Part shown: positions 2,571 through 29,309 of the stretch, in pieces | Layout: each line of letters starts with the position of its first letter | Position numbering within the stretch: position 1 is the first letter of the stretch | Assembly: GCA_023136265.1 (NCBI GenBank) | Contig: JAGLRN010000009.1 | Span: forward strand, 1-32,117 | Direction of reading: 5' to 3' | Length of the DNA: 32,117 bases | Origin: Thermoplasmata archaeon | Lineage (GTDB): Archaea > Thermoplasmatota > Thermoplasmata > RBG-16-68-12 > JAGMCJ01 | Made by a program: the position numbers and the translations under genes | Notes under the pieces: generated by a model | What the model was told of the DNA's origin: nothing | What the model saw: only the letters and a program-made list of their open reading frames with translations | Database searches by the model: none

Positions 2571-4487
2571 ATGCGTTTTCCCTATAGTTACCGCAAGCAC
2601 CAGAAGGACATCATCCAGGCCATCGAGAGTACCCTCCAAGGAGGTCACGTTGTCCTGCAGTCAGGGACGGGATCTGGGAAGACCGTCTGCGCGCTGTATC
2701 CGGCGTTGAAGCTCGCGACATCGGATGACAAGAAGGTCCTGTATCTTGTGAGGACGAATTCCCAGCAGAGGCAGGTCATCATCGAGATGCGCCGCATCGG
2801 CGGCGTCTTCGGCATGGGCTTCCAGGGAAGGCATTCGACCTGCTTCGCCGTCAGGAACAATCCACGTCTGAGGGAGGGTAACCCCGAGGAACTGATGAGA
2901 TATTGCAGTCACAAGAAGGCAAGGACTGTGAGGAGAGAGAGGGGCGGATGCAAGTACTACTCCAACCTGCTGAACGCAGACCTGAAGGAGATCGAGGATT
3001 GGGCCAAAAGGAGGATCCCGACGATGGAGCAGTTCTTTGGCAAGTGCAGGAGTCTGGGCATATGTCCCTACGAGACATCCAAACTCCTCATTCCCTCCGC
3101 TCACTTGGTCGCCTGCCCCTACGTCTACTTCTTCGATTATGGCATCAGATCGGCCTTTCTTGAGTGGATGGGAGTCGACACCAGGGACATCGTTCTGGTT
3201 GTTGACGAGGCCCATAACCTGCCGGAATATGCGAGGGACATGCGGTCCGCCCGCCTGACGCTCCATTCCCTCAGACTGGCCATGAGGGAGGCCGAGAAGT
3301 TCGGGGACGCCAAGATGCTTGGGACGACGACGGTGAAAGGGTTCTGCGACGTGCTGTACGACACGATTCTCCGCTTGGTGGCGGACTACGTGGAGGAGGA
3401 CGACGGCCTGCTCCCGCCGAATCAGCTCGAAGAGGACCTTATGCACAAGCTCACTCTTACATCGATACAGCTGCAAGCCCTGTTCAACAATCTGATGAGC
3501 TACGGCGAAGTGATAAGACGGAAGAGGGAGGAGGAAGGCAAACTCCCCAGATCGTTCATCTTCTCCCTAGGTGCCTTTCTCAGTTTCTGGACATCCATGG
3601 ACGCATCGTCCTACGTCAAGCTCGCCAATGCCGGTGACGCCTTGGGGATCGAGGGATACTGCCTGGACCCGTCGCACATCGGAGAGATGGTAACCGAATG
3701 CCATGCATCGGTGCACATGTCGGGGACGCTCGAACCGCTCGTCCAATACAGGGAGACTCTGGGCCTGCCCGAATCGACGACCTTGGCGACGTTCCCCAGC
3801 CCATTCCCCTCGGAGAACCGGCGGGTCCTCTATGTCGAGGATGTGACGACGAGGTACGAGGAGCTCCGCTCGAGCGAGGAGATCGTCCCTCGACTGAAGA
3901 GCCATATCCTGAACCTCGTGGAGAGCATCCCGCGCAACATCGTCATCTTCTTCCCCAGCCACGACAGGCTGGAGGAGTTCCTTGATGTGGGGGCGGCGGT
4001 CTCGAAACCCCTGTTTGTCGAGAGAAGAGGCTCGACGCATGACGAACTGATGGAGACCGTGGACGGCTTCAAGACAGGCTCTGGCGTACTGTTCGCGGTG
4101 ATGGGTGGGAGGATCAGCGAGGGTCTGGACTTCCCGGACAAGGAGCTGGAGATGGCCGTGCTAGTCGGCATCCCGTACCCGAAACCCACCGCCAAGCAGA
4201 AGGCACTGCTCAGGTACTTCGATCTCAAGTTCGACAAGGGCTGGGACTATGCTGTGAAGGCCCCCGCGACGAGAAGGATCCTCCAGTGCATAGGAAGATT
4301 GATCAGGAAGAAGAGCGACATCGGCGTCGCGGTGATACTGGACAAAAGGGCAGAATCATTCCAAAGCAAGATAGAGAACCTCGTCCCGACCAATGATCCA
4401 GTAGAAGAAACGAAGAAGTTCTTTGCGGAGAGAGAACTACTCCGTGATGGCGCTGGTCACCATGAAGTGCTCGTCGGACCGCATTAG
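2571..4487 (+). CDS. xpd: XPD/Rad3-family Fe-S DNA helicase
   Basis: This 638-residue superfamily 2 helicase has the length and layout of archaeal XPD, a 5'-to-3' DNA helicase linked to nucleotide excision repair. Walker A (SGTGSGKT) is at 31-38 and the DEAH box at 212-215. Between them lie the cysteines expected for the 4Fe-4S cluster: C91, C112, C127 and C159 or C165. The C-terminal helicase domain contains SGTLEPL, GRISEGLDFPDKELE and the arginine-finger motif QCIGRLIRKKSDIG at about 572-585. DinG-type bacterial helicases share this plan, but the four-cysteine insertion and archaeal context favour XPD. The ATG is leaderless from a TATA box at 2539. The last 51 bases overlap the convergent KaiC-like gene. 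Confidence 0.9.
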   Translation: MRFPYSYRKHQKDIIQAIESTLQGGHVVLQSGTGSGKTVCALYPALKLATSDDKKVLYLVRTNSQQRQVIIEMRRIGGVFGMGFQGRHSTCFAVRNNPRLREGNPEELMRYCSHKKARTVRRERGGCKYYSNLLNADLKEIEDWAKRRIPTMEQFFGKCRSLGICPYETSKLLIPSAHLVACPYVYFFDYGIRSAFLEWMGVDTRDIVLVVDEAHNLPEYARDMRSARLTLHSLRLAMREAEKFGDAKMLGTTTVKGFCDVLYDTILRLVADYVEEDDGLLPPNQLEEDLMHKLTLTSIQLQALFNNLMSYGEVIRRKREEEGKLPRSFIFSLGAFLSFWTSMDASSYVKLANAGDALGIEGYCLDPSHIGEMVTECHASVHMSGTLEPLVQYRETLGLPESTTLATFPSPFPSENRRVLYVEDVTTRYEELRSSEEIVPRLKSHILNLVESIPRNIVIFFPSHDRLEEFLDVGAAVSKPLFVERRGSTHDELMETVDGFKTGSGVLFAVMGGRISEGLDFPDKELEMAVLVGIPYPKPTAKQKALLRYFDLKFDKGWDYAVKAPATRRILQCIGRLIRKKSDIGVAVILDKRAESFQSKIENLVPTNDPVEETKKFFAERELLRDGAGHHEVLVGPH

Positions 4488-5144
4488 CGTGAAGTAGCCT
4501 CGGTCGTGGTTCGTCCTCCTCATCTTGACGCACCTTATCCTCAGCTGCACGTCGGTCTCCCCGACCTCATACTGCCTGAGGTATAGGATACCATCCGACA
4601 GGAAATCCTCTTGATAGGCGACAAGCCTGTCCGAGCCCATCGGTATCTCGGAGATGAGGAACGTTGTCGATCCCAGCTCGCGAAGGAATCCGAAGAAGTG
4701 GAAAAGGTCCCTTCTCGGGTTGGTCAGCTGTGCCAGAGAGTACAGGGCTGCGAGAGAATCAATGGCAACCATGTCGAAGTGGCTTTCTCTGACCCTCTGC
4801 TCGATGTACTTGGTGAGTATCTCGATCCAGTTCTTTGTCAGCTCCTCTTCCTTGTGCTCCATTCGGATCTTGGCCACATCCAGTACATACAGCTCCAGCT
4901 CGTCGATGTTCTTCATTCCCAGGTCCTCCATGGCGCCCTTCAGGGAGTCGTGTCCCTCCTCTAGGGCTATGAAGAGACCCTTGGATCCGTTGTGCTTCAC
5001 GTTGTTGTAGAGGATGCTGAACGTGAGAGAGGTCTTCATCGTCCCTGGCGTACCGCACACGAGCACGACGTGGCCTTTCGGTACGCCACCTCCAAGCGCC
5101 TTGTCGAACCCATCGACGTATGTTGGAATCCTCTCTAGACTCAT
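4437..5144 (-). CDS. KaiC/RecA-superfamily ATPase, second copy
   Basis: This is a 235-residue paralogue of the ATPase at 813. It lacks the N-terminal coiled coil but has the same core and similar phrases (HFFGFLRELG; LRIRCVKMRR against LKLRCAKLRH). Walker A GTPGTMKT is at 31-38, again with Met before the lysine, and Walker B FDMVAIDSL has its aspartate near 129. These features place it among single-domain KaiC-like archaeal ATPases, a family with mostly unassigned roles. A TATA box (5168-5175 on the minus strand) puts the transcript start at the ATG, so it is probably leaderless. The 51-base tail-to-tail overlap with the XPD gene means transcription of one could interfere with the other. Confidence 0.85.
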   Translation of the reverse strand: MSLERIPTYVDGFDKALGGGVPKGHVVLVCGTPGTMKTSLTFSILYNNVKHNGSKGLFIALEEGHDSLKGAMEDLGMKNIDELELYVLDVAKIRMEHKEEELTKNWIEILTKYIEQRVRESHFDMVAIDSLAALYSLAQLTNPRRDLFHFFGFLRELGSTTFLISEIPMGSDRLVAYQEDFLSDGILYLRQYEVGETDVQLRIRCVKMRRTNHDRGYFTLMRSDEHFMVTSAITE

Positions 5145-9221: not shown

Positions 9222-10457
9222 ATGCCCGAAGAGGCTCAGAAGATATTCTCGGTGACCGAGGTCACAGACACTATCCGCAATCTACTGAGAGAAGAACCCT
9301 CTCTGATCGGGGTCGCTGTCAGAGGGGAGCTGAGCAACTACGGGAAGTCGGCGCAGGGTCATTGCTACTTCACGCTCAAGGATGAGAACTCCTCCCTGAA
9401 GTGCGTCCTGTTCAGAGGCGACGCGGAGCGTCTTGGCATCGACCTGGAGGACGGCCAGAAAATCGTTGCGCTCGGGGACATCGACGTCTACCGACCGTCC
9501 GGATCCTATCAACTGATAGTGAGGGAGATCAACATCGAGGGTGTCGGCGAACTGTACCTGAAGTTCCTTCAGCTCAAGAAGTTCTTGGAGACGGAGGGCC
9601 TTTTCGCCGAGGAACACAAGAAACCTCTCCCGGCATTTCCCGCCAAGATAGGCGTTGTCACATCCGCGAAAGGAGCGGCATTTCGCGACATCGTGAAGGT
9701 CCTCGGTAGGAGATTCCCGCTGGCGGACATCATCCTTGCGCCATCGCTTGTTCAGGGAAGCGGTGCCCCGGAATCCATCGTCTCCGCAATTGAAATCCTG
9801 AACAGGTACGACGGCATCGACGTCATGATAGTCGGCAGGGGCGGCGGAGCCTTCGAGGAACTCGCATGCTTTAACGACGAATCTGTGGCGCGCACCATTT
9901 TCGATTCCCATATCCCCGTGGTTTCTGCTGTCGGACACGAGACGGACTTCACAATCGCTGACTTCGTGGCGGACAGGAGAGCGGCCACGCCCAGTGCGGC
10001 CGCCGAACTCGTGGCTCCTGACATCACAGAACTGCAAACATCTGTCGATACGTACAGGGAAAGCCTGGTCTGGGGTCTCAAGAACATGCTCGAGTCGAGA
10101 AAGAGGGATATTAGGAGGTTGGAGTCGGGACTCTCGTCGGATGTGGTCCTCGACCAGATAAGGACGCACTCTCAGGGGCTCGATGACCGCTTCCTGCAGA
10201 TGAGCCGGGCTCTGAAGTCATTCCTGAGCATTCGGAGGGAAGGTCTGAGGAAGCTGGGGGGTATGCTCGGGACCGCTGACCCGCTGGCAACACTAGACAG
10301 GGGGTATTCCATCGCGCTTAGGCTCCCGGACAAGAACGTGATCGAGACGATTGAGTCCATCAACTTGGGTGACGACGTTCTTGTCATGGTAAGGGATGGT
10401 GAGATTTACTGTGTCGTGAAGAACTTGAAGGAGGTGGAAAGACGACCGAGGAAATGA
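9222..10457 (+). CDS. xseA: Exodeoxyribonuclease VII large subunit
   Basis: This 411-residue protein is slightly shorter than bacterial XseA (about 450). An N-terminal OB fold covers residues 8-105 (VAVRGELSNY, GHCYFTLKD, IVALGDIDVY). The catalytic domain includes IGVVTSAKGAAFRDI at 143-157, the glycine-rich GRGGGAFEEL at 205-214 and GHETDFTIADFVADRRA at 238-254, all hallmarks of the family. A helical C-terminal arm follows, which in bacteria binds several small subunits. The enzyme degrades single-stranded DNA from both ends without metal. Its last four bases (ATGA) overlap the start of xseB, giving translational coupling. ExoVII is mainly bacterial and patchy in archaea, so acquisition by transfer is likely, though codon use does not stand out by eye. 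Confidence 0.95.
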   Translation: MPEEAQKIFSVTEVTDTIRNLLREEPSLIGVAVRGELSNYGKSAQGHCYFTLKDENSSLKCVLFRGDAERLGIDLEDGQKIVALGDIDVYRPSGSYQLIVREINIEGVGELYLKFLQLKKFLETEGLFAEEHKKPLPAFPAKIGVVTSAKGAAFRDIVKVLGRRFPLADIILAPSLVQGSGAPESIVSAIEILNRYDGIDVMIVGRGGGAFEELACFNDESVARTIFDSHIPVVSAVGHETDFTIADFVADRRAATPSAAAELVAPDITELQTSVDTYRESLVWGLKNMLESRKRDIRRLESGLSSDVVLDQIRTHSQGLDDRFLQMSRALKSFLSIRREGLRKLGGMLGTADPLATLDRGYSIALRLPDKNVIETIESINLGDDVLVMVRDGEIYCVVKNLKEVERRPRK

Positions 10458-10663
10458 CATTTGAGGACGCTCTGGAACGGTTGGAGAACATCGTGGACAC
10501 GCTTTCCAAGGGGAAGCTCTCACTGGACGAGGGAATGGAGAGATTTGAGGAGGGAATCCGACTCTTTCGACTCTGCGATGAGAAGCTGAGAAGCGCGGAG
10601 CAGCGAGTCTCGGTTCTGACCCAGTCCCAAGAGGGCGTCGAGGAAAGACCGTATGATGAATGA
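10454..10663 (+). CDS. xseB: Exodeoxyribonuclease VII small subunit
   Basis: This 69-residue helical protein has the XseB signature: MTFEDALERLENIVDTL, then LSLDEGMERFEEGIRL and a terminal helix. Its length is typical (about 70-80). In the enzyme several copies coat the coiled-coil arm of XseA and are needed for activity. The ATG overlaps the xseA stop as ATGA. It ends 25 bases before the stop of a convergent gene. Confidence 0.93.
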   Translation: MTFEDALERLENIVDTLSKGKLSLDEGMERFEEGIRLFRLCDEKLRSAEQRVSVLTQSQEGVEERPYDE

Positions 10664-11053: not shown

Positions 11054-13243
11054 TTATAGCTGGTCTTCGGTCATGAGCCTGGCGATTCTCTCCCGATCGT
11101 AGCCAAGAGGCTGAAGGAGCGTCTCGCCCATTCGACAGAGAAGCTCGACATACTTCGCCTTATCGTACGCCTCCCCTCCTTCCAACAAGTCAGCGATTCT
11201 CAGTCTCTCATCCGCAACTTTGCTCTCGCTGTCCAAAAGGACGAATCGAATCACCTCACCGGGGTGGACCTCCACGTCCTCCCCCTTCAGCTGGGTGAGC
11301 GCGGCGACCTGATTGTTGAAGACGCTATACTCCTCCAAGCTCCTCGAGATTCTCAGGGTGAGGATGAGGTCCTCAAGGTCTACGTCCCCCCTCCAGACCC
11401 GCCTAACCCATTTCCTTAGGACCTCCAGTGCCTCCGGGACGTTCTCCTTGAACTCCTTGACGTTCTCTGCCTTAGCAAACACATCCAGCATCTCCATCTG
11501 CGCCCTCTTTACCAGTTCACACGTGTCATGCCTTCTAGCCTCTATCCCACGAATCTTCATCTTGCCGTCCTCGAACATCCCGTAGTAGCGGTTCATGGCC
11601 CCGACATCGAACGTCTTGCAGGGCAGGAAAACGATCCATTTGTACACCCCCTCCCGCTCAACGGGGATTCCTATGTGTCCGGATACGTGCTCTATGAGCT
11701 TCTGCTCATCGCCCTTGCCCCTCAGCCAGAGGGAGTCGACTATGCCGTGAAGCACCTCGAAGCCATGCTGGTCGGCGATCTCCGCGGATTTGAGGAGGAT
11801 CTCGCGACCGTAGGCGGTTATGGACTCATGGCATTCTATCTTCCCGTATCTCGCGTTGCGGTAGCCCGTGTAGCCGAACGAGCAGACGAGAAGCCATTTC
11901 AGAATGTCCGATTTCTCTTTCGCCCTCTCTTCCCCTCTCTCCTTTGCCAATCTCTTGAAAACCATCCGCCTCCTTATCACGGGGGACAGAACGCGGGGAA
12001 TCAGCCCGATCTTCTTCTCACAAACATGGTACCCTATTTCGGGAACTCTGTGATTTGAGTCCGGGCAGCACTCGCACAGGACCGTTTCAGGCGATATGTT
12101 GAAGCGGGCCATTATGCTGGGGTACAGCGACGTGAAGTCTATCTCCAGGACATCCTCGTGAAGGCCTACCTTGGGCTCGAAGATGAAGCCGCCCTTATCG
12201 CATACGAGCAGCTCCTTGGCGGTCTTGAACTCCTCGGGCAGGTTCTTTTTCCACATCACTGGGTGCCCGTCTCTCAGGGCCTGATTGACCTGCATGGCGG
12301 ATATGGCGGTTCCGGGGGACAGTTTGGCGATCTCCTGCGGAGGGATATTGGAGATCCTCGCGAGATCTATGAGGCCGTAGAGCCCGCTCTCCATGTGCAG
12401 GAAGGAGCTTCCCATGTCTATGTGTATTCTCCCCCTCAATGTGTACTTCGGCGGTCTGTACAGAATGCGACCGTAGCTGAAGTACGACTTGCCCTCTCGG
12501 TGCGGGTTGACGAGGTTCGCCTCCCGCCCGAGCTGGAACTCCTCGAGAACATCGTTCTCAGCGGCCCGCCTGTAGAGATAGGGAAAGAGGAAGGAATCGC
12601 CGTTCCTGGTGAGCACGACGTCCGGATCGACCACGCCCATCCTCTGAGCGAGCTCCAGAAGCATCTCCCGCTCGTCGCCTCCTCTTACGATCCTATTGCC
12701 CAGTTTGATGCTGTGGATGGAATCGCTGAACCTCTTGATCTTTGAGCGACCGTGCACCCTGACTCCCATCTCCACTTGACTGAGCCGAGGGACGTCGTAG
12801 TGGATTGCCCATTGCTCATCCAGAAGAATGAAGTCGCGCACGATCTCGAGGAAGGCCATGGGGAAGACTCCCTTCTCCAGAGTGTACCGCTGGCTCAGTC
12901 GGATGTCCACATTGTAGAGGCTGAAATCCCTGTAGCGACCGCGGAAATCGATCTCTCCCGCGAGATATTTGAGGTCCGAGTAGGTCGCAGGCGTGATGTT
13001 CAGGACATCGAAGAGCTCCTGGCTTCCAAGTCTCAGCTTCCTTCTTTCGAATGAAACATCTCTTACGGGAACGGAGCCGAGCCAGTCCTTGATTCTTTTG
13101 AGCTTCCTCTTCTCGCCGTGCACGTAGAAATTGGGAAAGTAATCTGCATCGACTATCTTGTCCACGCCACTCTCCGTCTTCAACCAACAGACCATGTGAT
13201 TCTTGTCGTAGTCCGGGTAGACATCGAACAACCAACCTCTCAT
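11054..13243 (-). CDS. polB2: B-family DNA polymerase homologue of the PolB2 (inactivated) type
   Basis: The protein has 729 residues from ATG 13243, which overlaps the upstream stop (ATGA); the open frame to 13354 only runs back into that gene. Motif A is normal (D369-F-T-S-L-Y-P-S-I). Motif B, usually KxxxNSxYG, reads K449-W-L-L-V-C-S-F-G, losing the Asn. Motif C, usually YGDTDS, reads H499-G-I-V-D-S, losing the first catalytic Asp. The exonuclease domain is also altered: the ExoI region is RLSQVEMGV (about 153-161) without a DIE triad, and ExoII is N214-G-D-S-F-L where F-D is expected. This matches the archaeal PolB2 family, described as inactivated, though a crenarchaeal member (Dpo2) has been linked to damage-induced mutagenesis. 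It shares a transcript with a RadA-like gene. Confidence 0.9.
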   Translation of the reverse strand: MRGWLFDVYPDYDKNHMVCWLKTESGVDKIVDADYFPNFYVHGEKRKLKRIKDWLGSVPVRDVSFERRKLRLGSQELFDVLNITPATYSDLKYLAGEIDFRGRYRDFSLYNVDIRLSQRYTLEKGVFPMAFLEIVRDFILLDEQWAIHYDVPRLSQVEMGVRVHGRSKIKRFSDSIHSIKLGNRIVRGGDEREMLLELAQRMGVVDPDVVLTRNGDSFLFPYLYRRAAENDVLEEFQLGREANLVNPHREGKSYFSYGRILYRPPKYTLRGRIHIDMGSSFLHMESGLYGLIDLARISNIPPQEIAKLSPGTAISAMQVNQALRDGHPVMWKKNLPEEFKTAKELLVCDKGGFIFEPKVGLHEDVLEIDFTSLYPSIMARFNISPETVLCECCPDSNHRVPEIGYHVCEKKIGLIPRVLSPVIRRRMVFKRLAKERGEERAKEKSDILKWLLVCSFGYTGYRNARYGKIECHESITAYGREILLKSAEIADQHGFEVLHGIVDSLWLRGKGDEQKLIEHVSGHIGIPVEREGVYKWIVFLPCKTFDVGAMNRYYGMFEDGKMKIRGIEARRHDTCELVKRAQMEMLDVFAKAENVKEFKENVPEALEVLRKWVRRVWRGDVDLEDLILTLRISRSLEEYSVFNNQVAALTQLKGEDVEVHPGEVIRFVLLDSESKVADERLRIADLLEGGEAYDKAKYVELLCRMGETLLQPLGYDRERIARLMTEDQL

Positions 13244-13494
13244 TTCTCTGTGCTCCGAACTCTCTCTTTGAGGGTCTCTATCTCCTTCTGCAGTTCGAGT
13301 ATTATGGACATGAAGATGCTCTCCATGGGATCGATGCGGTTTGCATACGAGCAAGCGGACGAATGCGCCCGCGCCTTGTTCATGAGCTTATCGAACACCT
13401 GTTTGTCCTTTGGTCTCAGGGCCCTCTTGTACTGCCCCCATCCGGATATGGCGGATTCGAGAAGCAGTCTGAAGGTAGGAACAGTTCTTCCCAT
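13240..13494 (-). CDS. Small conserved archaeal-type protein in the polB2 operon
   Basis: The protein has 84 residues and begins MGRTVPTFRLLLE. It continues with a conserved-looking helical core (WGQYKRALRPKDKQVFDKL, ARAHSSACSYANRIDPMESI) and ends in a coiled-coil-like KEIETLKERVRS. Small proteins of this kind occur in many archaea without an assigned function. The start is well supported: GAGGTGA lies four to five bases upstream, straddling the stop of the preceding gene. Its TGA overlaps the polymerase ATG. The placement between a RadA-like protein and PolB2 suggests a structural partner of one of them; that is inference. Confidence 0.8.
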   Translation of the reverse strand: MGRTVPTFRLLLESAISGWGQYKRALRPKDKQVFDKLMNKARAHSSACSYANRIDPMESIFMSIILELQKEIETLKERVRSTEK

Positions 13495-13498
13495 TTGA

Positions 13499-14248
13499 TC
13501 ACCTCACTAACGGCTCTTCCGCAGCCATGTAAACCTTGTCCTCCACATACTCTGCCAGAGTGGTCTGATTGTGAGCCACCGGGGCGTAGCTCATCCACCC
13601 CTCCTCCCTCGGCAATACGACCCTAATACACCGAACACCGTTCTCGAACCTCACTACCTTGTCCGGCTCGGTGTAGAGCAACCTTCTCAGGGCGCTCCTG
13701 CGGTACATATTGCTCAGCTTGTAGTTGGTGACGAGAGTGATGGTGTTCCACCGCTTCGTCAGCTCTCTCACCGTGGAGAAGCCCTGCCGGACGAGTTCCA
13801 GAGCTTCTGGCCACCACAGGTCCTCGTCCAGGTAGAGCGCCGGGAAGCAGGAGACCACCAGCATGCCCGCCCCGCTCTCCTGTATGCGGTCCTCCAGCCT
13901 CTCTCCTATCAGCGTGGACATCTGATATGCGGTGAAGGATCGGGAAATATGGACCTGGCTCAGCACATGCTCTCTGTCCACGCCGAACCGCTTGGCTAGA
14001 TTGGCGAGGATGAAAGGGTCGATGGAGTTGCCACCATCCAGAAACACGACCGGAAGATCGTGTCTCATTATCTCCTGAACGCAGAGCAACGAGACGAAGT
14101 CGAAGAGGAACTTCGAAGCGCTGTCTATGAAGCTAACACTCGATGATCTGAAGGCACCAAGGAACTCGTCCAGCGGTCTCAGGGTGGACGAGACGTCTCT
14201 CTCGATTCTCTGGGCTTCCAGAACAAGGCTCTTCGCAATCGCTCGCAT
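13499..14248 (-). CDS. RadA/RadB-like RecA-superfamily protein with degenerate P-loop
   Basis: This 249-residue protein aligns by eye with the RadA core. At the position of the Walker A loop it reads FIDSASKFLFD (40-50) in place of GxxGxGKT. Then comes VVFLDGGNSIDPF (67-79), matching RadA's IDTENTFRPE strand, and HISRSFTAYQM matching the ARAFNSNHQ helix. The Walker B strand is GMLVVSCFPALYLD without the usual acidic-serine ending. It therefore keeps the fold but probably cannot bind ATP in the normal way. The ATG has GGGGGAGA five bases upstream and a TATA box at 14282. It is the first gene of an operon with the 84-residue protein and PolB2. Confidence 0.75.
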   Translation of the reverse strand: MRAIAKSLVLEAQRIERDVSSTLRPLDEFLGAFRSSSVSFIDSASKFLFDFVSLLCVQEIMRHDLPVVFLDGGNSIDPFILANLAKRFGVDREHVLSQVHISRSFTAYQMSTLIGERLEDRIQESGAGMLVVSCFPALYLDEDLWWPEALELVRQGFSTVRELTKRWNTITLVTNYKLSNMYRRSALRRLLYTEPDKVVRFENGVRCIRVVLPREEGWMSYAPVAHNQTTLAEYVEDKVYMAAEEPLVR

Positions 14249-14257
14249 ATTCTCCCC

Positions 14258-14708
14258 CTATGGTGAAAAAACGGTATGTGAACATATAACGCAAATCGGA
14301 GGGGAGGGGAGCGAAAGTATCGCGCCCAAAAGCGACCCTATCAGTCCGAGGAGGATGCCCGCGGCAACGTATGAACCAACCACGGCGAGACGAGAATATC
14401 CCAGGCCCCTGAGAACGCCAATCTCCCTGCGCTGGCTCGCGACCAACCTGGAGAAGGCGGAGTAGACGACAAGGAAGGCAACAAGGAGGAAAATGAGCGC
14501 GATCGACCCAGTGAACTCCTCACCGTATCTCATCCGCGAAGTTCATCTCATCGTACTTCTGGTTGAGCGAATCCCTGGTGGACGGAATCATGTTAGCCAT
14601 CCCTGCGAACATCATGGATTCCATGGTGATCAGAAGGACGCTTCCTATGGCTCTCTAGCGCATTCGGAAAACGTCTCTCCTCATCTTCCGGCCCAGCTGG
14701 GACAAATC
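14258..14708 (-). pseudogene. Broken FtsX/MacB-type ABC permease
   Basis: Directly after the ATPase stop, the minus strand reads the start of a permease ([17 protein letters not shown]), then an in-frame TAG near 14657, then RAIGSVLLITMESMM and SLNQKYDEMNFADEIR before a TGA at 14520-14522. In the next frame the typical last part follows (TGSIALIFLLVAFLVV, FSRLVASQRREIGVLRGLG, a final membrane segment), which is cut off near 14300. The whole remnant is about 150 codons where a permease needs about 400 or more. It therefore carries a nonsense mutation, a frame change, a large internal deletion and a lost end. The neighbouring ATPase remains intact. Confidence 0.8.
14282..14290 (-). promoter_or_regulatory. 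TATA box of the polB2 operon (minus strand)
   Basis: The minus strand reads GTTATATGT, predicting transcription from about 14260 and a leader of about 12 bases with a GGGGGAGA ribosome site before ATG 14248. It lies inside the 3' end of the degraded permease gene. Confidence 0.55.
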
Positions 14709-15462: not shown

Positions 15463-16356
15463 CTAGCCGAAGCTCTGGAGCGTGAACTGCTCCTTTATCC
15501 TGATTTCCTTTTCCTGATGCGGAATTCCCAATCTGTCCATCAGATAGAAGGCGTTCTTCGCGGCCTTGGCCTTTCCGTGGTTGTTGAAGTAGATCCTCGT
15601 CTTCTCAGCCCTGGAGTCGAACTCCTTGATCGTTGGAACCCACTTCTCTAGCTCCTCCTCTTTGTAGAGGTAGTCGTACCTGTTGATTCTGTGGTCCTTG
15701 ATTTGCTTCTCTCCTTTCCACCAGATATCGTAGTTCTTTCCGTGGAACCGTATGTAGGCATGGTCGGCCGTTGACGTATCGGTGCGCGGGAAATACGGAC
15801 TGTCCAGGCTGCAGACCGCGACGTTCTTCGAGGATATGAGTTCCTTGACGCTGGGAAGGTAGTCGTACCCGGAGGAATCCAGCCAGGACTTGTGTCTGAA
15901 CTCAACGACGTAGTCGTATTTGTCCGTGTCCAGGACGTCCAAGACGGTCTCGAGGCGCTTCAGGCCGCCCTCGCCCTCTTCGACCTTGAACCTCGGAGAA
16001 AGCTGGATCAGCACAGAGGCCAGGAGATTCTCATCCGCCAGGGGCCTCACGACAACACCCTCGAACTCTTTGGCGGCACTCGCGGCGCGCTCCCCGTCCT
16101 TCAGAATCCTCATATGGGTGACATCTTTGTGCATCTTCAGGGAGAAATCGAAATCATCCATCCTCTTGCCCTTGGCGATCCACGCCTGAATCGTTCTCTC
16201 CCCTGGAACCGCGTAGTACGTGCTGTCGATCTCGACGGTCGGGAAGTACCTTCCATAGTATTCCAGCCACCCCCCTCTCTTGTCCCTCATGGACTCAGGA
16301 TAGAACGCGCCTATCCAATCCTTGTAGGACCAGCCGCAGGTTCCTATCCTAATCAT
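15463..16356 (-). CDS. DUF72 (YecE-family) protein
   Basis: This 297-residue TIM-barrel-like protein belongs to the widespread DUF72 family, whose biochemical role is not established. It opens with MIRIGTCGWSYKDW, the standard first strand of the family, followed by a YYGRYFPTVEIDSTYYA segment. Later come EFRHKSWL and AYIRFHGKN, both typical. ATG 16356 is chosen because the TATA box at 16380-16387 makes it leaderless; the open frame extending to 16410 would begin upstream of that transcript. The neighbouring ABC genes and membrane protein give no functional clue. Confidence 0.9.
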   Translation of the reverse strand: MIRIGTCGWSYKDWIGAFYPESMRDKRGGWLEYYGRYFPTVEIDSTYYAVPGERTIQAWIAKGKRMDDFDFSLKMHKDVTHMRILKDGERAASAAKEFEGVVVRPLADENLLASVLIQLSPRFKVEEGEGGLKRLETVLDVLDTDKYDYVVEFRHKSWLDSSGYDYLPSVKELISSKNVAVCSLDSPYFPRTDTSTADHAYIRFHGKNYDIWWKGEKQIKDHRINRYDYLYKEEELEKWVPTIKEFDSRAEKTRIYFNNHGKAKAAKNAFYLMDRLGIPHQEKEIRIKEQFTLQSFG

Positions 16357-16379
16357 GGTCGTCAGCACGAATCGGAGAA

Positions 16380-16387
16380 TATAAAAA
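16380..16387 (-). promoter_or_regulatory. TATA box of the DUF72 gene (minus strand)
   Basis: The minus strand reads TTTTTATA, centred 27 bases before ATG 16356. Confidence 0.6.
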
Positions 16388-16425
16388 GATTGGCCAGAGG
16401 GGGAGGTCAAACTGTCCCCGCATCC

Positions 16426-17081: not shown

Positions 17082-18710
17082 GTGAAGATCACAATCCTCG
17101 ACGGCTACGTGGATGAGCCGTCTTGTCTTGGCGTTCCACCGTACATCTCGCCCTATCCTCGCTACGTTGCAGGAGCCGTCCTTTCCTCTGACAGTGAGTA
17201 CGAATACGTCACAATCGAACAGTTGCGGAAGGGGGGGCACCTCTCAGGCGACGCCCTGGTACTGATCGCCGGACCCGTTGTGCCGGGGAGATACCTCCGC
17301 GGGATGCCCATCTCCTCCAAGGAGATCGTCAGCATTTGCGGGGACTTCGAGGGAACCCGCATCCTTGGAGGCCCCCTTGCGCGCTTCGGCATGTACGACC
17401 GAAGGATCGAGGACGTCTTCGACATCATCGCCAAGAAGGATCTGGATGCACTCCTGAGCGACTTCCTTTCTGGCGGGAGGGCGAAGCACAGGAACCGAGG
17501 AATGGAGGAGTGGAGGCAATGGTCGATTCTCGGCTCCGAGGTGGTCAAGGAACACCCCGACTTTCCCCAACCGCTGATCGCAGAGCTTGACAGCTGGCGG
17601 GGGTGTGTCCGATATCTTTCCGGCGGCTGCTCCTTCTGCATCGAACCCCTCTACGGCAAGCCCCAGTTCCGAGAGGCGGAGAACATTGTCGAGGAGGTGA
17701 GAGCGTTGTACTCCGCGGGAGTGCGCAACTTCCGTCTCGGGGGACAGTCGTGCGTGTTCTCCTATCTTGCAGAGGGCGTGGGGGAAACAGAGACGCCTGT
17801 TCCGAACCCGAGCGCGATCGACGGATTGCTCAAGGGCATAAGGAAGGCCGCGCCAGATCTCCACGTCCTGCATACGGACAACGCCGATCCAGCAGTGATC
17901 GCGGCCCATCCGAGAGAATCGAAGGAGGTCGCGCGTCATCTGGTGGAGTACTGCACTGGTGGGAACGTGCTTGCGTTCGGTGTGGAAAGTGCGGATCCGG
18001 AGGTCATCGCTGCGAACAATCTCAACACCAACCCAGAGCAGGCGAAGGCCGCGGTTGAGCTGATAAACGAGGTGGGGTCGGGGAGGAGCCCCACCGGTCT
18101 CCCACACCTCCTTCCGGGGATCAACTTCCTCTCCGGGCTGAAGGGCGAAAGGAAGGAGACCTTCTCGATGAACTTCGCGTTCCTGAAGGGACTGCTGGAC
18201 GAGGGGCTGATGATACGGAGAATCAACATCAGGCAGGTCCTCCCCGTTCGCGGGCGGTTCGCCGTCAGGAAGCACTACCGGGAATTCAGACGCTTCAAGT
18301 CAGAGGTCCGGCAGGACATCGACAGACCGATGCTCGTGAGGATCCTTCCAAAGGGGATTGTGCTCAGGAGAGTGTACTTGGAGATCTGGAAGGGAAGAAG
18401 CACGTTCGGTCGCCAGATAGGAACGTATCCGATCCTCGTGGGGCTCCCCTACAAGGCCGAACTGAACAGGTTCGTGGACGTCTGTATATTCTCTCATGGC
18501 TTCCGGAGCGTGACCGGGACCGAGTTCCCGTTGGCAGTCAATGACGCATCGCTAGATGCACTGGCTTCCCTGCCAGGAATCGGAAGGAAAAGGGCAGCGA
18601 GGATCGTGAGGGCCAGACCGCTCAGGAGTCCTTCTCAGTTCCATGAGGTCATGGACGACGAGGCCGTAGCCGCTGAGATCGTGCGGTTCCTGAAGTTCGA
18701 ATCAGAATGA
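17082..18710 (+). CDS. Radical SAM protein with C-terminal helix-hairpin-helix (COG1031 type)
   Basis: The protein has 542 residues from a leaderless GTG (TATA box at 17053). An N-terminal domain of about 160 residues (SCLGVPPYISPYPRY) precedes the radical SAM core. Its cluster motif is C175-x7-C183-x2-C186 (RGCVRYLSGGCSFC), rather than the common Cx3Cx2C. Downstream come FRLGGQSCVF, LAFGVESADPEVI and LPGINFLSG, typical of the barrel. The last 50 residues carry a helix-hairpin-helix (LASLPGIGRKRAARIVRA), a DNA or RNA contact motif. This architecture matches COG1031 proteins of archaea, whose reaction is unknown. The last nine bases overlap the end of herA. Confidence 0.88.
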   Translation: MKITILDGYVDEPSCLGVPPYISPYPRYVAGAVLSSDSEYEYVTIEQLRKGGHLSGDALVLIAGPVVPGRYLRGMPISSKEIVSICGDFEGTRILGGPLARFGMYDRRIEDVFDIIAKKDLDALLSDFLSGGRAKHRNRGMEEWRQWSILGSEVVKEHPDFPQPLIAELDSWRGCVRYLSGGCSFCIEPLYGKPQFREAENIVEEVRALYSAGVRNFRLGGQSCVFSYLAEGVGETETPVPNPSAIDGLLKGIRKAAPDLHVLHTDNADPAVIAAHPRESKEVARHLVEYCTGGNVLAFGVESADPEVIAANNLNTNPEQAKAAVELINEVGSGRSPTGLPHLLPGINFLSGLKGERKETFSMNFAFLKGLLDEGLMIRRINIRQVLPVRGRFAVRKHYREFRRFKSEVRQDIDRPMLVRILPKGIVLRRVYLEIWKGRSTFGRQIGTYPILVGLPYKAELNRFVDVCIFSHGFRSVTGTEFPLAVNDASLDALASLPGIGRKRAARIVRARPLRSPSQFHEVMDDEAVAAEIVRFLKFESE

Positions 18711-20243
18711 GAAGACCTTGTCCACCCTCTGGGCGACCGTATCCATTTCCTCGCTCGTCATGTTGTCCCCATCGAGGATGTTCTCTCTCACATTCTCTGG
18801 GGTGTAGTTCATGATATCAATCACGGTCGGGATGCGTATGGCGTCTCCCACCATCGCAACCGTCCTTGCCGGTATCGTCGCAACGATGCTCTCCCACACG
18901 GACCTGTCGGGGACGCCCGCAAGGGCCGATGCGAGATCCGAAGGCTCCTTCAGCGACAAGATGAGTCTGTTGGCCAGCTGGCTTCTGACCTCATCGTCGA
19001 TCTTGGCGGGTCTCTGGTCCACAAGGGCGAGTATGAGGTTGAACTTCCTGGTCTCCCTGGCAAGCTTGTTGAAGATCGTGTAGGGCGCGATTTGCGGAGC
19101 CAGGAACTTGTGCGCTTCCTCGAGGAAGAGAACAAGGCGGGGAAAGTCCTCACTCCTCTCCGTGTACCGATCGAACAACCTCCTCGTGAGCACGTTGGCG
19201 ACGAAGAGGTACACCATCTGGTCTGTCCCGTATTCGCCGAAATCCAGAACGACCGACCTCCCCTCGCGGATGAGAGAGATGAGCTGTTTGAAAGCATCCT
19301 TCCCGCCATGCCTGATGAACGTGAACCTCCGCATTCTCCCCATCCTTCTCTTGAGGGCGCTCAGGACACTCGGGTGAACCTTGTGCCCCCACTCCTCGAG
19401 GTCCGCTTGCCTGATCGCGGAGACGATGTCTCCCTTTCTCGACCTGTTAATCTCGTAGATGGCATCGATCATGTTGCGATTCAGGTCCTGGAACGCAACG
19501 ATGAGGTCCTCGGGCCTTATCTCACTTGGATTGATGATGAAGGGCACGGCCTCCTTGTTCTTCGGGTCAAGCGAGAACACCTTCACCCTCTCCGGGAAGT
19601 AGTACTTCAGGCCCTCCGTCTTGTCCGTTCTCGAATATACGCCATACTCACCGTGCATGTCGAAGATCAGGACGCTTCCTACTTCCTTTGACAGAATGCC
19701 GATGCACACGAGCTTGTTGAGGACGCTCTTCCCCATCCCAGTTCTCCCGAAGATCCCGAAAGGCTTCTCGGTAAGCTTGCTGAAGTCGATATGCACCATG
19801 AACCTCTCCACGCCGCGGATAGAGCCCAGGGGCGCGGAGAAGTCGCTTCTCTGATAGATTTTCTCGACATCTCTCAGGCTCGCGTGCCTCGCGACGGAGA
19901 AGTACGGAGGAATGGTCTGAGGCTCGGACAGCTTATGGGTCCCTCTGTGTATGAGCTGAATCGGCCTTAGGTTCGCCTTCGAGTAGAATATCCTCCCGCT
20001 GAAGCCCTCGTGGGTCTCGCTCAACGGGACAATGGAATCCCTCATCCCCGACCCCGCCAACCTCTCCGCGATCTCGACGGACTGGTTCACGATGTCGTGG
20101 ACCATGCAGTAGAAGTCGTACGTCCGGCCCTCGACGACGACCGGGTACCCGATTCGGAGGGTCTCCGGATTGTCCAGGCTTAGCTTGGCCACCAGACCTC
20201 CGAGCACTGAGGCCGAAACGACCTCGCCGATTTCCTCGTTCAT
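18702..20243 (-). CDS. herA: HerA DNA-translocating ATPase
   Basis: This 513-residue FtsK/HerA-type hexameric ATPase has an N-terminal HAS-barrel (residues 1-100: EIGEVVSASVLGGLVAKL, GYPVVVEG). Walker A GRTGMGKS is at 166-173, IFDMHGEYG follows, Walker B with its glutamate is in LVLFLEEAHKF, and an arginine-rich LARETRKFNL stretch comes after it. HerA works with NurA to resect DNA ends after Mre11-Rad50 action, leaving 3' single strands for RadA. The ATG overlaps the nurA stop as ATGA, so the two partners are translationally coupled. It is the last gene of the four-gene operon. Confidence 0.95.
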   Translation of the reverse strand: MNEEIGEVVSASVLGGLVAKLSLDNPETLRIGYPVVVEGRTYDFYCMVHDIVNQSVEIAERLAGSGMRDSIVPLSETHEGFSGRIFYSKANLRPIQLIHRGTHKLSEPQTIPPYFSVARHASLRDVEKIYQRSDFSAPLGSIRGVERFMVHIDFSKLTEKPFGIFGRTGMGKSVLNKLVCIGILSKEVGSVLIFDMHGEYGVYSRTDKTEGLKYYFPERVKVFSLDPKNKEAVPFIINPSEIRPEDLIVAFQDLNRNMIDAIYEINRSRKGDIVSAIRQADLEEWGHKVHPSVLSALKRRMGRMRRFTFIRHGGKDAFKQLISLIREGRSVVLDFGEYGTDQMVYLFVANVLTRRLFDRYTERSEDFPRLVLFLEEAHKFLAPQIAPYTIFNKLARETRKFNLILALVDQRPAKIDDEVRSQLANRLILSLKEPSDLASALAGVPDRSVWESIVATIPARTVAMVGDAIRIPTVIDIMNYTPENVRENILDGDNMTSEEMDTVAQRVDKVFSF

Positions 20244-21244
20244 CTAAGATCCCTGCTTGCTTGGTCAAGGTATTCATGGAACGCCCCCCGTCTCTCCCCT
20301 TCCACGTGCGTCAGTCCGCCAATGATCTCTTCGACAGGCATTCCCTCCTCGACACCTACGTGGAGCAGAACCTCTTCGTACACCTCCCTGAACTGCCTGA
20401 TCGTCACTGCGAACCTATGGGCTTCAAGGAGCGGATAGGGGTATCCTGGACACAGTCCCGACCTGGCATAGTGAGCGAGGTTCGAGAAGACGAAGGACGG
20501 GTCGTCCCTGAACGTGCCAACGTCAATACGGAACCACTTCGGTGAATCGGGATGAAGTTTGGCGAAGTAGACGTCACCATGAAGGAATCCCCTGTGCTTC
20601 TCCTCGTATCCGCTGGGCACCCTCACAAATGCCATACCGTTCTTTCCATTCAGGAGTTCCTCGTCCGTCTTCACCCCGCCGAAGGCGTGAGAATACGAGT
20701 CCTTGGAGATGCCTACGAGGATGTTTCCTCGTCTCTCGCACTCCTCCCTGGTCTCGTGCAGATGGTTGGACTCCTTGTGAAAGGACGCAAGCGTGCCGTC
20801 CACGGCAATGATGGCACCCTCTCTCTCCCGCGCCATCCGGAGAGTGAGCTCCCCCTCCAGGTGGTGCCTGAACTCGTTCATCATCGCCCGCGGATGGTCT
20901 CCTGACAATCTCGTCGCCTCGAAGAGCTGCATGTGAAGATCGCTCTGTCTCTCGACCACGTGCCTTTCAGTCGAGATGAGGATGGGAACATCCAGTCTCT
21001 TGTTGTCCACCAGCCTGTAGCCGTCATCCCTGAAGACATAGGCAAGACCACCGACCCTCACGATTGCGAGCCACATGCTTGATATGTTCAGCAGGAATGA
21101 GTAAGAGCCGTCAACAGCAATCATCTCTCTCACGGTCCGAGAACGATCGAAGTTCACAAGCTCACAGTCCCTTAGGACATCCGGTCCATTGTTGCGATAG
21201 AGAGCGACGTCTCTCATACGGTGTCTCAACCCCTCCAACAGCAT
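20240..21244 (-). CDS. nurA: NurA nuclease
   Basis: This 334-residue protein has the NurA nuclease plan: the first catalytic motif MIAVDGSYSF (41-50, with Asp45), a second IIAVDGTLASF in the middle, and later LHPDSPKWFRIDVG and the C-terminal helical part. NurA is a Mn-dependent 5'-3' exonuclease and endonuclease that forms a complex with HerA. Its ATG follows the rad50 stop without a gap (TAGATG), and its stop overlaps the herA start, both signs of coupled translation within one operon. Confidence 0.93.
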   Translation of the reverse strand: MLLEGLRHRMRDVALYRNNGPDVLRDCELVNFDRSRTVREMIAVDGSYSFLLNISSMWLAIVRVGGLAYVFRDDGYRLVDNKRLDVPILISTERHVVERQSDLHMQLFEATRLSGDHPRAMMNEFRHHLEGELTLRMAREREGAIIAVDGTLASFHKESNHLHETREECERRGNILVGISKDSYSHAFGGVKTDEELLNGKNGMAFVRVPSGYEEKHRGFLHGDVYFAKLHPDSPKWFRIDVGTFRDDPSFVFSNLAHYARSGLCPGYPYPLLEAHRFAVTIRQFREVYEEVLLHVGVEEGMPVEEIIGGLTHVEGERRGAFHEYLDQASRDLR

Positions 21245-23557
21245 CTACGACACTACCTCGATTCTCGACTCCTGCTCCGGTGTCATGTGCACCCTGATTT
21301 TACCGGGGAACTTGTCCGCTACCTCCGCAAGATGTGTGATAAGAATGACCCTGTCGAAGAACTCTCCCATTTTGAAGAGCTTGTGAATGAACAGGTCCCT
21401 GTTCGATTCCGTATCAAGGGACCCAAGGTCGCCCTCATCGATGAAAAGGGTCTTCATCCGTCCGTAGGTGCGGCCGACCTGTGGGAGGCCCGCCAGCTGT
21501 TTGGCTATCGCGAACCTGAGAGCCGCGTTTATCTGCGTTCTCTCACCACCGCTGAACTCTGCGACATCGTGCCAATTGCCGTCGACACCCTCCACCTCGA
21601 TCTTCACCCCGTACTCCCTCTTCGCCTCATGGGTCTTGAGACTGACGCGCGTGAACCGTCCGTCCGTGAGGTCAACGAGGTTCTGCGAGGTCTCGATTTC
21701 GAGCTCTGGCAAGAGCTGGTTGATGGCGTACATAGCCACACCTCTCTTGTGGAAGATTTGATCCTTCAGGATGGCGAACGTCTCCAGATTCGAGCGTCCC
21801 TCATCGAGGATCCTCACCTTCTTTTCCATCTGCTTCTTCTCCTCTTCGAGATCTCCGAGTCTCCTCTGAAGGCTCTCTATCTGGACCTCCTTGCCTCGCA
21901 CTTCCCTTTCGATCTCGCTCTTGCTCGTCTTGAGGCTCTCGAAGTCCCTCCTCGCGTTCTGGTACTTCTCCTCGTCTGAGGCGAGCTTCCTGAGCTTCTT
22001 CCTGAGCTCTTTGACCTCTTTCTCGCCTTGTCCGAGCCTTTTCTTCAGATCCTCTAGGAGCTTTCCCACATCTCCGACCTCATCGAGCTTCCGACGGACA
22101 TCCTTCAGTCTGGTCTTCTTCCTGCCCATCTCGGTGATCGTCTCTTCCAGCATCTTCAATCGGTTCTTCGCATCGTCATCGAAGCTGAGCTTCTCGAGTT
22201 CTCTGTCCACCTTCTCCGTGGCAGTCCCCATCTCCTCGATTCTTTTCCGGTGTCTTTCTTCCAGGGCCTTGAGGTCCTTCTTTAGCTGGCCGACCTGGCT
22301 CTCAATTTCACTGAGGACAAAGGAGTCCTCGTTTATCTCCTGGACCTTGTTGTTCACGTCTTTCATGTGCTTCAACGCGTCCTCTCGCTCGCCCCGAATC
22401 TGGCTGATGACGTCCTCTTGTCCAGTGAGCCATCCTATCTCCCTCTCTATCCTCGATATCCTCTCTTCGAGTGCACCTTCAGTGCGCAGAAGTCGGAATG
22501 CATGGTCCTTGTCGACAGTCGTGGAGAGAGCGGCTATCCTTCCCTCGGAGAGGTTCAGCCTCTCGTTGAGCCTCGATTTCTCTCGCCTGAACTCCTTCGT
22601 AGCATCTCCCAGAGACTTCCTGTGCACTCTTCTCTCTTTCTCGAGGCCTGCTGCCAGGTGACCGATTTCCTTCAGTTGAGTCCTCTCTTCAATGAGCTTC
22701 TCATGGTCCTTCGTTTCGTCCTCGAGCCTCTTGACCTCCTCCCTCAGCTCGGTGGACTTCTCACCCGCTTTGGTGACCTTATCTATCTCTCGTTGGGTGC
22801 TTGAGACGCGTCTTTCTTTGTCCTCAAGGGAGGCCTTTGCCGAGATGAACGCCTCGTGCTCCCTCTCAAGGTCTTTCAGCTTCTCCTTGTCCGCGACAAG
22901 CCTCTTCTCCACGCCGACCAGCTTCTCGTGGAGAGCTTTGACTTCCCTTTCGGCGGCTTTCGCCTCCTCCTTCACCTCAGGGATTTTCGAGAGACGCTCT
23001 CTCAAGAACTCAACATCATGCTCACCGATTTCAATATCATGGCGAATCTGATCGTAATCGGTCTTCGCTTGCGCCTGAGCCTTCTCGAAAATCTCCAGTC
23101 TGAAGAGCTTCTGGAATATCCGGAGACGCTGGGAATCGCTCTCCGCGCCCAGTTCCTTCATCTCCTCCTGCCTCACGAATGTGGAGTTCCTGAAGCCGTC
23201 ATAATCCAAGCCGACCGTGTCTCGGACTATGCTCTCCAGTTCCGGGATGGTCCCAGATATCTGAGACCCGTTCTTGTGTAGATTGAGATATGGGGAACCC
23301 TTCTGCGTGAAGCCCCTCTCGATCTCGTAGAGTCCCCCGCCCTGCGCGAAGCGAATCTTCACATAGCCACCAGGTTTGCATACGTCCGATATCCCTATGC
23401 CCGAGATGTCCGTCCTCGACGTCCTCTTGTAAAGGGCAAAGGTCACAGCGTCAAGAATGGAGGTTTTTCCCGAACCAGTCCTCCCAGTGATGACCGTGAA
23501 TTTCTTTGGAAATCTCAACATCGAGGTTCCACCCACATACCGCATGAAATCTTTCAT
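21245..23557 (-). CDS. rad50: Rad50 ATPase lacking a zinc hook
   Basis: The protein has 770 residues counted from ATG 23557. Walker A is G-R-T-G-S-G-K-T (25-32), the signature FSGGERTQ is at 668-675 and Walker B LFIDEGD lies near 704-710, followed by LGSLD; about 450 residues of charged coiled coil separate the halves. The only cysteine is in SDVCKPGG near residue 60, so the CxxC zinc hook that joins Rad50 coils is absent. The coordinate given is the first standard start, but it cuts off the first beta strand of the head. The frame is open 58 codons further, and a CTG at 23671 with GAGGTG before it would restore the strand (see findings). It sits between mre11 and nurA. Confidence 0.9.
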   Translation of the reverse strand: MKDFMRYVGGTSMLRFPKKFTVITGRTGSGKTSILDAVTFALYKRTSRTDISGIGISDVCKPGGYVKIRFAQGGGLYEIERGFTQKGSPYLNLHKNGSQISGTIPELESIVRDTVGLDYDGFRNSTFVRQEEMKELGAESDSQRLRIFQKLFRLEIFEKAQAQAKTDYDQIRHDIEIGEHDVEFLRERLSKIPEVKEEAKAAEREVKALHEKLVGVEKRLVADKEKLKDLEREHEAFISAKASLEDKERRVSSTQREIDKVTKAGEKSTELREEVKRLEDETKDHEKLIEERTQLKEIGHLAAGLEKERRVHRKSLGDATKEFRREKSRLNERLNLSEGRIAALSTTVDKDHAFRLLRTEGALEERISRIEREIGWLTGQEDVISQIRGEREDALKHMKDVNNKVQEINEDSFVLSEIESQVGQLKKDLKALEERHRKRIEEMGTATEKVDRELEKLSFDDDAKNRLKMLEETITEMGRKKTRLKDVRRKLDEVGDVGKLLEDLKKRLGQGEKEVKELRKKLRKLASDEEKYQNARRDFESLKTSKSEIEREVRGKEVQIESLQRRLGDLEEEKKQMEKKVRILDEGRSNLETFAILKDQIFHKRGVAMYAINQLLPELEIETSQNLVDLTDGRFTRVSLKTHEAKREYGVKIEVEGVDGNWHDVAEFSGGERTQINAALRFAIAKQLAGLPQVGRTYGRMKTLFIDEGDLGSLDTESNRDLFIHKLFKMGEFFDRVILITHLAEVADKFPGKIRVHMTPEQESRIEVVS

Positions 23558-23667
23558 CTCGACCTCTTCTATGACGAAACCATCAGATGTAGTGACTTCC
23601 TCAATGCTCTCAGCGTGCTCGGGAGCCTCCTCCTTGACGTCCTCGGCCTCGAAGTATTCCAGAGTCC

Positions 23668-24861
23668 TCAGGACAGCACCTCTCTCAGTATCTGGTCTCC
23701 TTCTCTGAGGATGGGATCGTGTTTCTTGTGGTCAGAGTAGTTGAGATCAACGAAGTCTTTGAAGAGCCTGTACGGGTCCAGTGTGAATTCGGACAGGCTC
23801 ACTTTCTCCACGCCCTCCTCAATCCATCTGATTTGGTACGTGAACGCGGGACGCAGGAAATCCGCTATCGCGTTCTCATCGATTCTCTCCCGCGCTCCCT
23901 CTCCGACTGAGATCCTGACTCTGAGCATCTTCTCGCTGACATTGACTGGCAGGCTGTTCAGTATGTCCTTCGTGGGATTGTCGCTGCCGGCGAGATCAAC
24001 TTCCACATCAACCATGTCCCTGACTGGAAGGTCGATGAAGCTCCACTTCCTCTCTTCGGGATTCACGGACACGAAACCCTTGGCATCCAGGCGCTCTCCC
24101 CAGTCTATTCTCTCTGGGGCACCTGTGTACACAATCGGAGGCCGGTTCCCCATGACCTGGTGCAGGTGTATGTGGCTGAAGAGCGCGAGGTCGACCGTCT
24201 GCGGAATCATGTCCTGAGTGAATGAGAACTCATCTGGCAGGATCTCGATGTATGTCGTGCTGCTTATCTTCGCCCCTTCCACGTAGTAGTGACCGAGGAG
24301 GATTTTGTAATCCGCATCCATCTCCTTCGCTCTCTTCTTCATCCATTCTTTCCAGAGCCTCCTGGACAGCTCATAGCTCTGCTCCCTCGGGATGTCCTCG
24401 TTCAACTTCTCCTTGACCCACTCGACAATCTGTTCAGGATGCAGGTAGGGGAGAACAAGGAAACCCACTCGAGCAGATCCGAGCTCGAGAATCCTGACCT
24501 CGGGTTTCCTGAACACAGTGACGTTAGGATACCCACGGAAGTCCTCTATGGAGGTCCCTCGCGCCATGCTTCGCGGCTGGTCGTGGTTCCCCGCGAGGAT
24601 CCACACGGGGATTCGGGCGTCCCTCAGCGGCTCGATTACGTCCGCCCTCACCAGTTCCCTGAACGCAGGGCTCACGTGCGTTCGGTCGAACAGGTCTCCG
24701 AGGATCGCGAAGAGGCCCGCGCCCTTCTCAATCGCATACTTCGCGGCCCGCGCGAAGTTCTTGTGCAGGTCCATCGCTCGCTCGGAAATCCCTGTCTCTG
24801 GATTCACGTTGTATCCGAAGTTCATGCCTTCGTGAACATCACCAGTAGCAACAATCTCCAT
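23668..24861 (-). CDS. mre11: Mre11 nuclease
   Basis: The protein has 397 residues from ATG 24861 and is a metallophosphoesterase with all Mre11 motifs: GDVHEG (D8, H10), GDLFDR (D56), GNHD (91-94), GHYYVEG (H191) and the SHIHLHQ pair (H230, H232). These residues bind two Mn ions for double-strand-break end processing with Rad50. A capping domain and a C-terminal helical region (LDPYRLFKDFVDLN), which binds the Rad50 coil, follow. A TATA box at 24886-24893 puts the transcript start near 24863, so the ATG is nearly leaderless; GTG 24873 is the alternative. It is first in the order mre11-rad50-nurA-herA. Confidence 0.95.
   Translation of the reverse strand: MEIVATGDVHEGMNFGYNVNPETGISERAMDLHKNFARAAKYAIEKGAGLFAILGDLFDRTHVSPAFRELVRADVIEPLRDARIPVWILAGNHDQPRSMARGTSIEDFRGYPNVTVFRKPEVRILELGSARVGFLVLPYLHPEQIVEWVKEKLNEDIPREQSYELSRRLWKEWMKKRAKEMDADYKILLGHYYVEGAKISSTTYIEILPDEFSFTQDMIPQTVDLALFSHIHLHQVMGNRPPIVYTGAPERIDWGERLDAKGFVSVNPEERKWSFIDLPVRDMVDVEVDLAGSDNPTKDILNSLPVNVSEKMLRVRISVGEGARERIDENAIADFLRPAFTYQIRWIEEGVEKVSLSEFTLDPYRLFKDFVDLNYSDHKKHDPILREGDQILREVLS
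23669..23682 (-). promoter_or_regulatory. Candidate ribosome site and CTG start for rad50
   Basis: The minus strand reads GAGGTG, five bases, then CTGA. The CTG (23671-23669) is in the rad50 frame and overlaps the mre11 stop TGA, in the same manner as the ATGA overlaps of xseAB, polB2 and nurA-herA. GAGGTG also precedes the 84-residue gene at 13494. This would add 38 residues to Rad50. Confidence 0.4.
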
Positions 24862-24885
24862 CTCGAGTACCACAACGTCTGGAAG

Positions 24886-29290: not shown

Positions 29291-29309
29291 GACACTCTCC
29301 CCCATGGAT

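Follow-up and report, generated by a model that had tools for sequence, protein, structure and literature searches.

In Sulfolobus (Saccharolobus) islandicus and S. solfataricus, the Dpo2 polymerases roughly equal the replicase in nucleotide incorporation, have no exonuclease activity, and proficiently extend mismatched and lesion-containing primer ends (PMC8764526). Sulfolobus Dpo2 produced in E. coli was weak or formed aggregates. Targeted mutagenesis induced by damage depends on Dpo2 alone in Sulfolobus (PMC7390963), and the dpo2 operon is induced about 20-fold by NQO (PMC10470591). For the operons that encode such PolB2 polymerases with the small protein PPB2 and the RadA relative iRadA, high-confidence models of a heteropentamer exist for 40 homologous complexes, and an MGRT arm is the defining PPB2 motif (PMC11791011). 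The genes enriched near PolB2 that the main text of that paper lists are orc1/cdc6, lexA, SRAP, and DUF72, with PolY not among them.

Here we describe a PolB2 locus from the phylum Thermoplasmatota, in a stretch of 32,117 nucleotides referred to as the window. The reading that we favor, at a probability of about 0.83, is that the window encodes a putatively competent translesion polymerase without proofreading, in one tightly packed operon with PPB2 and iRadA.

Results and Discussion

A PolB2 gene with an intact reading frame

The polymerase gene occupies positions 11054-13243 of the minus strand, a strand that an earlier sequence-only reading left unstated; it begins with an ATG at 13243 and ends with a stop codon at 11056-11054, and the plus strand across the same stretch has several stops. 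The predicted 729-residue product matches the Pfam DNA_pol_B (E=5.8e-30) and exonuclease (6.7e-10) domains, its best PDB profile match has E=2e-90, and the best-scoring solved relatives are the archaeal PolB3s of Pyrobaculum calidifontis (5MDN) and Pyrococcus abyssi (4FLT). The closest named relatives are from Thermoplasmata MAGs, with 94% and 93% identity. We aligned 85 PolB2 rows drawn from 293 Thermoplasmatota genomes, haloarchaeal plasmids, and MAGs, and in a tree built by a quick method 77 of them form a group apart from Pol II and the PolB3-like enzyme of the host (support 100), this outgroup consisting of only two rows on long branches. The window protein is placed among the Thermoplasmatota rows, and the haloarchaeal PolB2s fall inside the PolB2 group. 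The open reading frame is thus a PolB2 polymerase of an already known type, and its proposed identity as a B-family homologue, its assignment to PolB2 (through the HxxxD motif C, the intact motif A, and the tree), and its Thermoplasmatota host all hold up. An AlphaFold2 model made from six sequences is too poor for metal-site geometry (mean pLDDT 50, pTM 0.37), and its Foldseek matches are PolBs with TM scores of 0.2-0.3 and an rmsd of about 27 Å.

The distribution of the family is patchy, with matches at E<=1e-60 in 103 of the 293 sampled genomes, as might be expected if the gene were a decaying pseudogene or remnant. However, the frame is intact, dN/dS relative to the two closest relatives is 0.13-0.14, the partner genes are constrained too (0.17-0.21 for iRadA and 0.10-0.13 for PPB2), and the promoter is conserved, so that we regard decay of the gene as scarcely credible.

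The polymerase site is replaced but strictly conserved

Both the polymerase and the exonuclease motifs had been described as eroded from the sequence alone, and the individual substitutions on which that description was based are borne out. Motif A (D369-FTSLYP; 12119-12139, minus strand) is followed by a Ser, giving DFTSLYPS, and opens with the retained aspartate D369, which along with P375 is present in all 85 rows. In motif B (K449-WLLVCSFG; 11873-11899, minus strand) the K, F, and G are likewise present in 85/85, but relative to the solved PolB3s V453 occupies the place of the Asn and F456 that of the Tyr; in every row the Asn column holds V, L, or I. Motif C (H499-GIVDSLW; 11726-11749, minus strand) has HGIVDS in place of YGDTDS, and residue-level alignment with the YxDTD of the solved PolB3s pairs H499 with the Tyr, I501 with the first Asp, and D503 with the second; H499 and D503 occur in 85/85 rows. 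In the same motif B and C columns, both E. coli Pol II and the PolB3-like enzyme of the host show the canonical residues.

What does not stand is the conclusion that the polymerase motifs are eroded. Residues D369, K449, F456, H499, D503, R426, K563, N463, and A464 are invariant in all 85 rows, and conservation across the protein peaks in motif B plus the stretch downstream of it and in motif C, at 3.5-3.65 bits compared with a mean of 2.29. Ahead of motif A is a D(K/R) motif, D349-K350, whose D is found in 85/85 rows and is followed by R or K in 78/85. With the low dN/dS, these patterns indicate that the odd polymerase site is a family-wide replacement, strictly conserved and without decay, and it looks as though the site was re-shaped in the ancestor of the family and has been held since.

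The absence of the first motif C Asp and of the motif B Asn from all 85 rows, like the earlier sequence-based predictions of an "inactivated PolB2" (PMC4104785), would fit a catalytically dead polymerase that serves as a structural or regulatory subunit with iRadA at stalled forks or origins. We consider this improbable, because the remaining catalytic residues are invariant and motif C is among the tightest segments, neither of which a dead scaffold would need, and because activity has been shown for crenarchaeal homologues that share this motif C (PMC8764526). The view that action with a single motif C aspartate is unresolved is out of date. In Dpo2 the retained second Asp is the metal ligand and the His has been suggested to stand in for the first (PMC8764526); the alternative that the D(K/R) motif replaces it has been withdrawn by its own authors (PMC11791011). 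In a competent polymerase of the window, D369 and D503 would coordinate the metals and His499 would occupy the motif C Tyr position, and given the homology and the conserved active site its role is most likely that of an extender, as for crenarchaeal Dpo2. The broken appearance of the polymerase is thus a family trait under strong selection, and its surroundings could matter more.

An intein (PF14890, 7.9e-12) lies inside motif B of a PolB2 that is otherwise close to the window's (locus L007, 5001-7691). Motif B intein sites are usually found in active, essential polymerases. Relatives also occur in viral sequences: the polymerase of Leptospira phage genomes KF114879, KX656785, KF114880, and KF114878 has about 32% identity with the window's PolB2 across 92% of the length of the latter, and a viral contig (L093, 3741-6379) has a PolB2 relative beside phage capsid and adaptor genes. 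An 83-codon open reading frame preceding the latter is a candidate PPB2, but a gene at L093:2994-3638 that we entertained as iRadA encodes an SU10-adaptor-like phage protein.

The exonuclease site has decayed

The description as eroded is apt for the exonuclease. The acidic residues of the ExoI DIE are replaced (by G160 and R162 in our alignment), ExoII reads NGDSFLF with L219 at the Asp position (the F-L for F-D already pointed out), and no ExoIII Asp is left in either the residue-level alignment to the solved PolB3s or the 85-row alignment. The exonuclease-like region averages 2.01 bits and its catalytic columns vary freely, the ExoII Asp being present in 7/85 rows. D142 was suggested as a surviving ExoI Asp by the P. 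abyssi alignment, but the Pyrobaculum and MAFFT alignments put ExoI at residues 157-163, and since D142 varies across rows it is not counted as such. Judged from these columns, the exonuclease site is decayed, and only the exonuclease carboxylates drift.

Operon partners and neighboring genes

PolB2 is the third gene of an iRadA-PPB2-PolB2 operon, and the sequence-only description of the operon as a defined one is upheld by a 4 nt gap between iRadA and PPB2 and by an ATGA overlap of the PPB2 stop with the PolB2 start. PPB2 (13240-13494, minus strand) encodes 84 amino acids beginning MGRTVPTFR. The iRadA product (249 amino acids; 13499-14248, minus strand) is a RadA/Rad51 relative with degenerate ATPase motifs (Pfam Rad51, 7.9e-6; RadA chains, 4.8e-5), and its structural model (pLDDT 65) matches DMC1/RadA ATPase cores with TM scores of about 0.6-0.66. 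Alignment to RadA chains shows IDSASKF at the Walker A place and Ser133 at that of the Walker B Asp, and with both sets of residues replaced iRadA looks ATPase-dead. Near its C terminus is a PCNA-binding-like motif, QTTLAEYV (13544-13567, minus strand), and many relatives have a QxxLxx[FY] pattern in the equivalent position, in agreement with the clamp motifs reported for iRadA (PMC11791011). Both partner genes adjoin PolB2 in most relatives. This is the PolB2 mutasome operon of Makarova 2014 (PMC4104785) and Timinskas 2025 (PMC11791011), and the three products most likely form a PolB2 mutasome.

A DUF72 gene (15463-16410, minus strand; Pfam DUF72, 1.5e-55) is a same-strand neighbor and a candidate member of the transcript; the neighborhood is conserved, with DUF72 upstream of iRadA in L003, L005, L006, L007, and others. 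Between an ABC ATPase gene and iRadA lies a truncated FtsX-type permease fragment (14258-14533, minus strand), which looks like a remnant, as the gap is much shorter in the relative L003. Downstream of the operon and convergent with it are genes for the bacterial-type exonuclease VII subunits XseA and XseB (9222-10663, plus strand). HerA-like, NurA-like, Rad50-like, and Mre11-like genes stand in a row at 18702-24873 (minus strand), for which no ACTTTC-TATA element of the kind described below was found; in Sulfolobus, DNA damage induces the homologous operon along with dpo2 (PMC10470591). Elsewhere on the minus strand, two KaiC-like ATPase genes (813-1604 and 4437-5144) flank an XPD-like helicase gene, and two adjoining genes (26660-29305 and 29433-31475) encode secreted-type proteins with very similar C-terminal regions, one having a PKD domain.

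A conserved ACTTTC element upstream of the operon

Two lineages with 63% identity between their PolB2s share a conserved region 5' of iRadA, which in the window contains the hexamer ACTTTC (14313-14318, minus strand), conserved upstream of PolB2 operons, and a TATA-like box, TTATAT (14284-14289, minus strand), starting 29 bp after the start of the hexamer. In scans for which gene starts were approximate and loci without a recognized iRadA were searched upstream of PPB2, 30 of the 76 operons have ACTTTC upstream compared with 3.6 expected, a count reached in none of 200 resamples. It is the top-ranked hexamer, present in 20/32 non-redundant lineages, with its reverse complement in 0/32. The hexamer is usually embedded in AATACTTTC[AG], and in most cases a TATA-like box follows at 23-29 bp.

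Control PriL regions outside the host genus lack the element (0/15), as do the regions upstream of 27 orc genes (0/15 second orc copies and 0/12 initiator-like orcs), and an autoregulated Orc1-2-like regulator was rejected on that count. A wider regulon was also rejected, as ACTTTC-N19..24-TATA occurs twice in the whole host genome (at the operon and at PriL), compared with two occurrences of a reversed control pattern. The PriL match is just upstream of the gene for the primase large subunit (L095, 1501-1556, on host contig C29); it is kept in the two nearest relatives (L098 and L099) and absent further out, and the site is therefore weak.

These data suggest that the operon is probably switched on after DNA damage through ACTTTC. 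This hexamer, identical to a crenarchaeal damage element, gives a concrete handle on how a euryarchaeal phylum may respond to DNA damage. We put forward more tentatively that ACTTTC/ANTTTC governs the Thermoplasmatota mutasome as part of an ancient or transferred cross-phylum damage regulon, and that in most species this mutasome may be independent of PolY.

PolB2 without a Y-family polymerase

The host genome encodes PolD and a PolB3-like enzyme, and no Y-family polymerase gene was found in it (92% complete) or in five close relatives. Similarly, PolY was not found in 49 of the 74 PolB2-bearing Thermoplasmatota genomes that are at least 90% complete, several of them single-contig, although MAG incompleteness limits what such absence means. 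PolB2 and PolY show no association across the phylum (PolY in 34/103 compared with 53/190; Fisher p=0.42), but in genus g65 of family f25 9/9 PolB2-bearing genomes have a same-strand PolY gene downstream on the same contig, at a distance of about 1-1.5 kb. At one such locus (L082, 1820-6511) the order is a PPB2 open reading frame, PolB2, and a convergent iRadA, with PolY just beyond, and L083 (also f25, g65) is a further example.

In the absence of a Y-family inserter, the two-polymerase scheme derived from Sulfolobus cannot apply unchanged to this host. The lack of PolY in the host, its five relatives, and these 49 genomes could mean that in such lineages PolB2 does both insertion and extension at lesions, aided by iRadA and PPB2. 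This also seems unlikely, as the Dpo2 of Sulfolobus is a poor inserter opposite lesions (PMC8764526), insertion could be the task of another enzyme (PolD, the PolB3-like enzyme, a PolX-like enzyme, or primase), and an unsystematic look found no residue difference marking the PolY-less lineages. Thermoplasmatota lineages with PolB2 and no PolY, together with a genus with PolY beside PolB2, make the inserter-plus-extender model testable by comparison.

In the reading that we prefer, that of a translesion polymerase without proofreading, DNA damage would probably induce the operon through ACTTTC, iRadA and PPB2 would anchor PolB2 at the ends of stalled primers, where iRadA may touch PCNA through its C-terminal QxxLxxY motif, and PolB2 would then extend the mismatched or lesion-blocked termini.

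Comparison with known systems

The window PolB2 shares its fold family with the PolB3s 5MDN and 4FLT, but those two have YxDTD at motif C, an Asn in motif B, and exonuclease motifs, as active proofreading replicases do.

The promoter element resembles the Sulfolobales ANTTTC element in hexamer, orientation, and position upstream of TATA, and homologues of the element-bearing genes are damage-induced in Sulfolobus, where ANTTTC is a damage-response element (PMC5817253, PMC9738581). The Sulfolobus upsE element is exactly ACTTTC (PMC5817253), and ANTTTC is both the UV-inducible promoter motif and the DDRE bound by Orc1-2 (PMC9738581). However, the Sulfolobus element spans -44 to -39 and its TATA box about -30 to -26, a spacing of roughly 14 bp (PMC5817253), whereas in Thermoplasmatota it is mostly 23-29 bp, placing ACTTTC about one helical turn farther from TATA. 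In addition, the promoter of an Orc1-2-type regulator is expected to carry a Sulfolobales DDRE, but the orc promoters here have no ACTTTC. We therefore describe the element as DDRE-like rather than as a member of the DDREs, and both differences make common regulation with Sulfolobus a tentative proposal.

With respect to the mutasome operons of PMC4104785 and PMC11791011, the window differs in having no adjoining orc1/cdc6, lexA, or SRAP gene, and in the ABC-transporter gene and FtsX remnant between DUF72 and iRadA; it agrees in gene order, the PPB2 MGRT arm, the inactive RadA, the clamp-like motif of iRadA, and the DUF72 neighbor.

Relative to Sulfolobus Dpo2 the window PolB2 is longer, with more of the exonuclease-like domain left, and PolD is present in its host, where no Y-family polymerase was detected, whereas Sulfolobus has Dpo4 and lacks PolD. 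The proposed link of crenarchaeal PolB2 to translesion mutagenesis is well founded, Dpo2 being needed for damage-induced mutagenesis (PMC7390963), and it is the Dpo2 of S. islandicus and S. solfataricus that the window PolB2 most resembles, in the HxxxD motif C, the intact motif A, and the degenerate exonuclease (PMC8764526, PMC7390963), and in sharing an operon with iRadA and PPB2.
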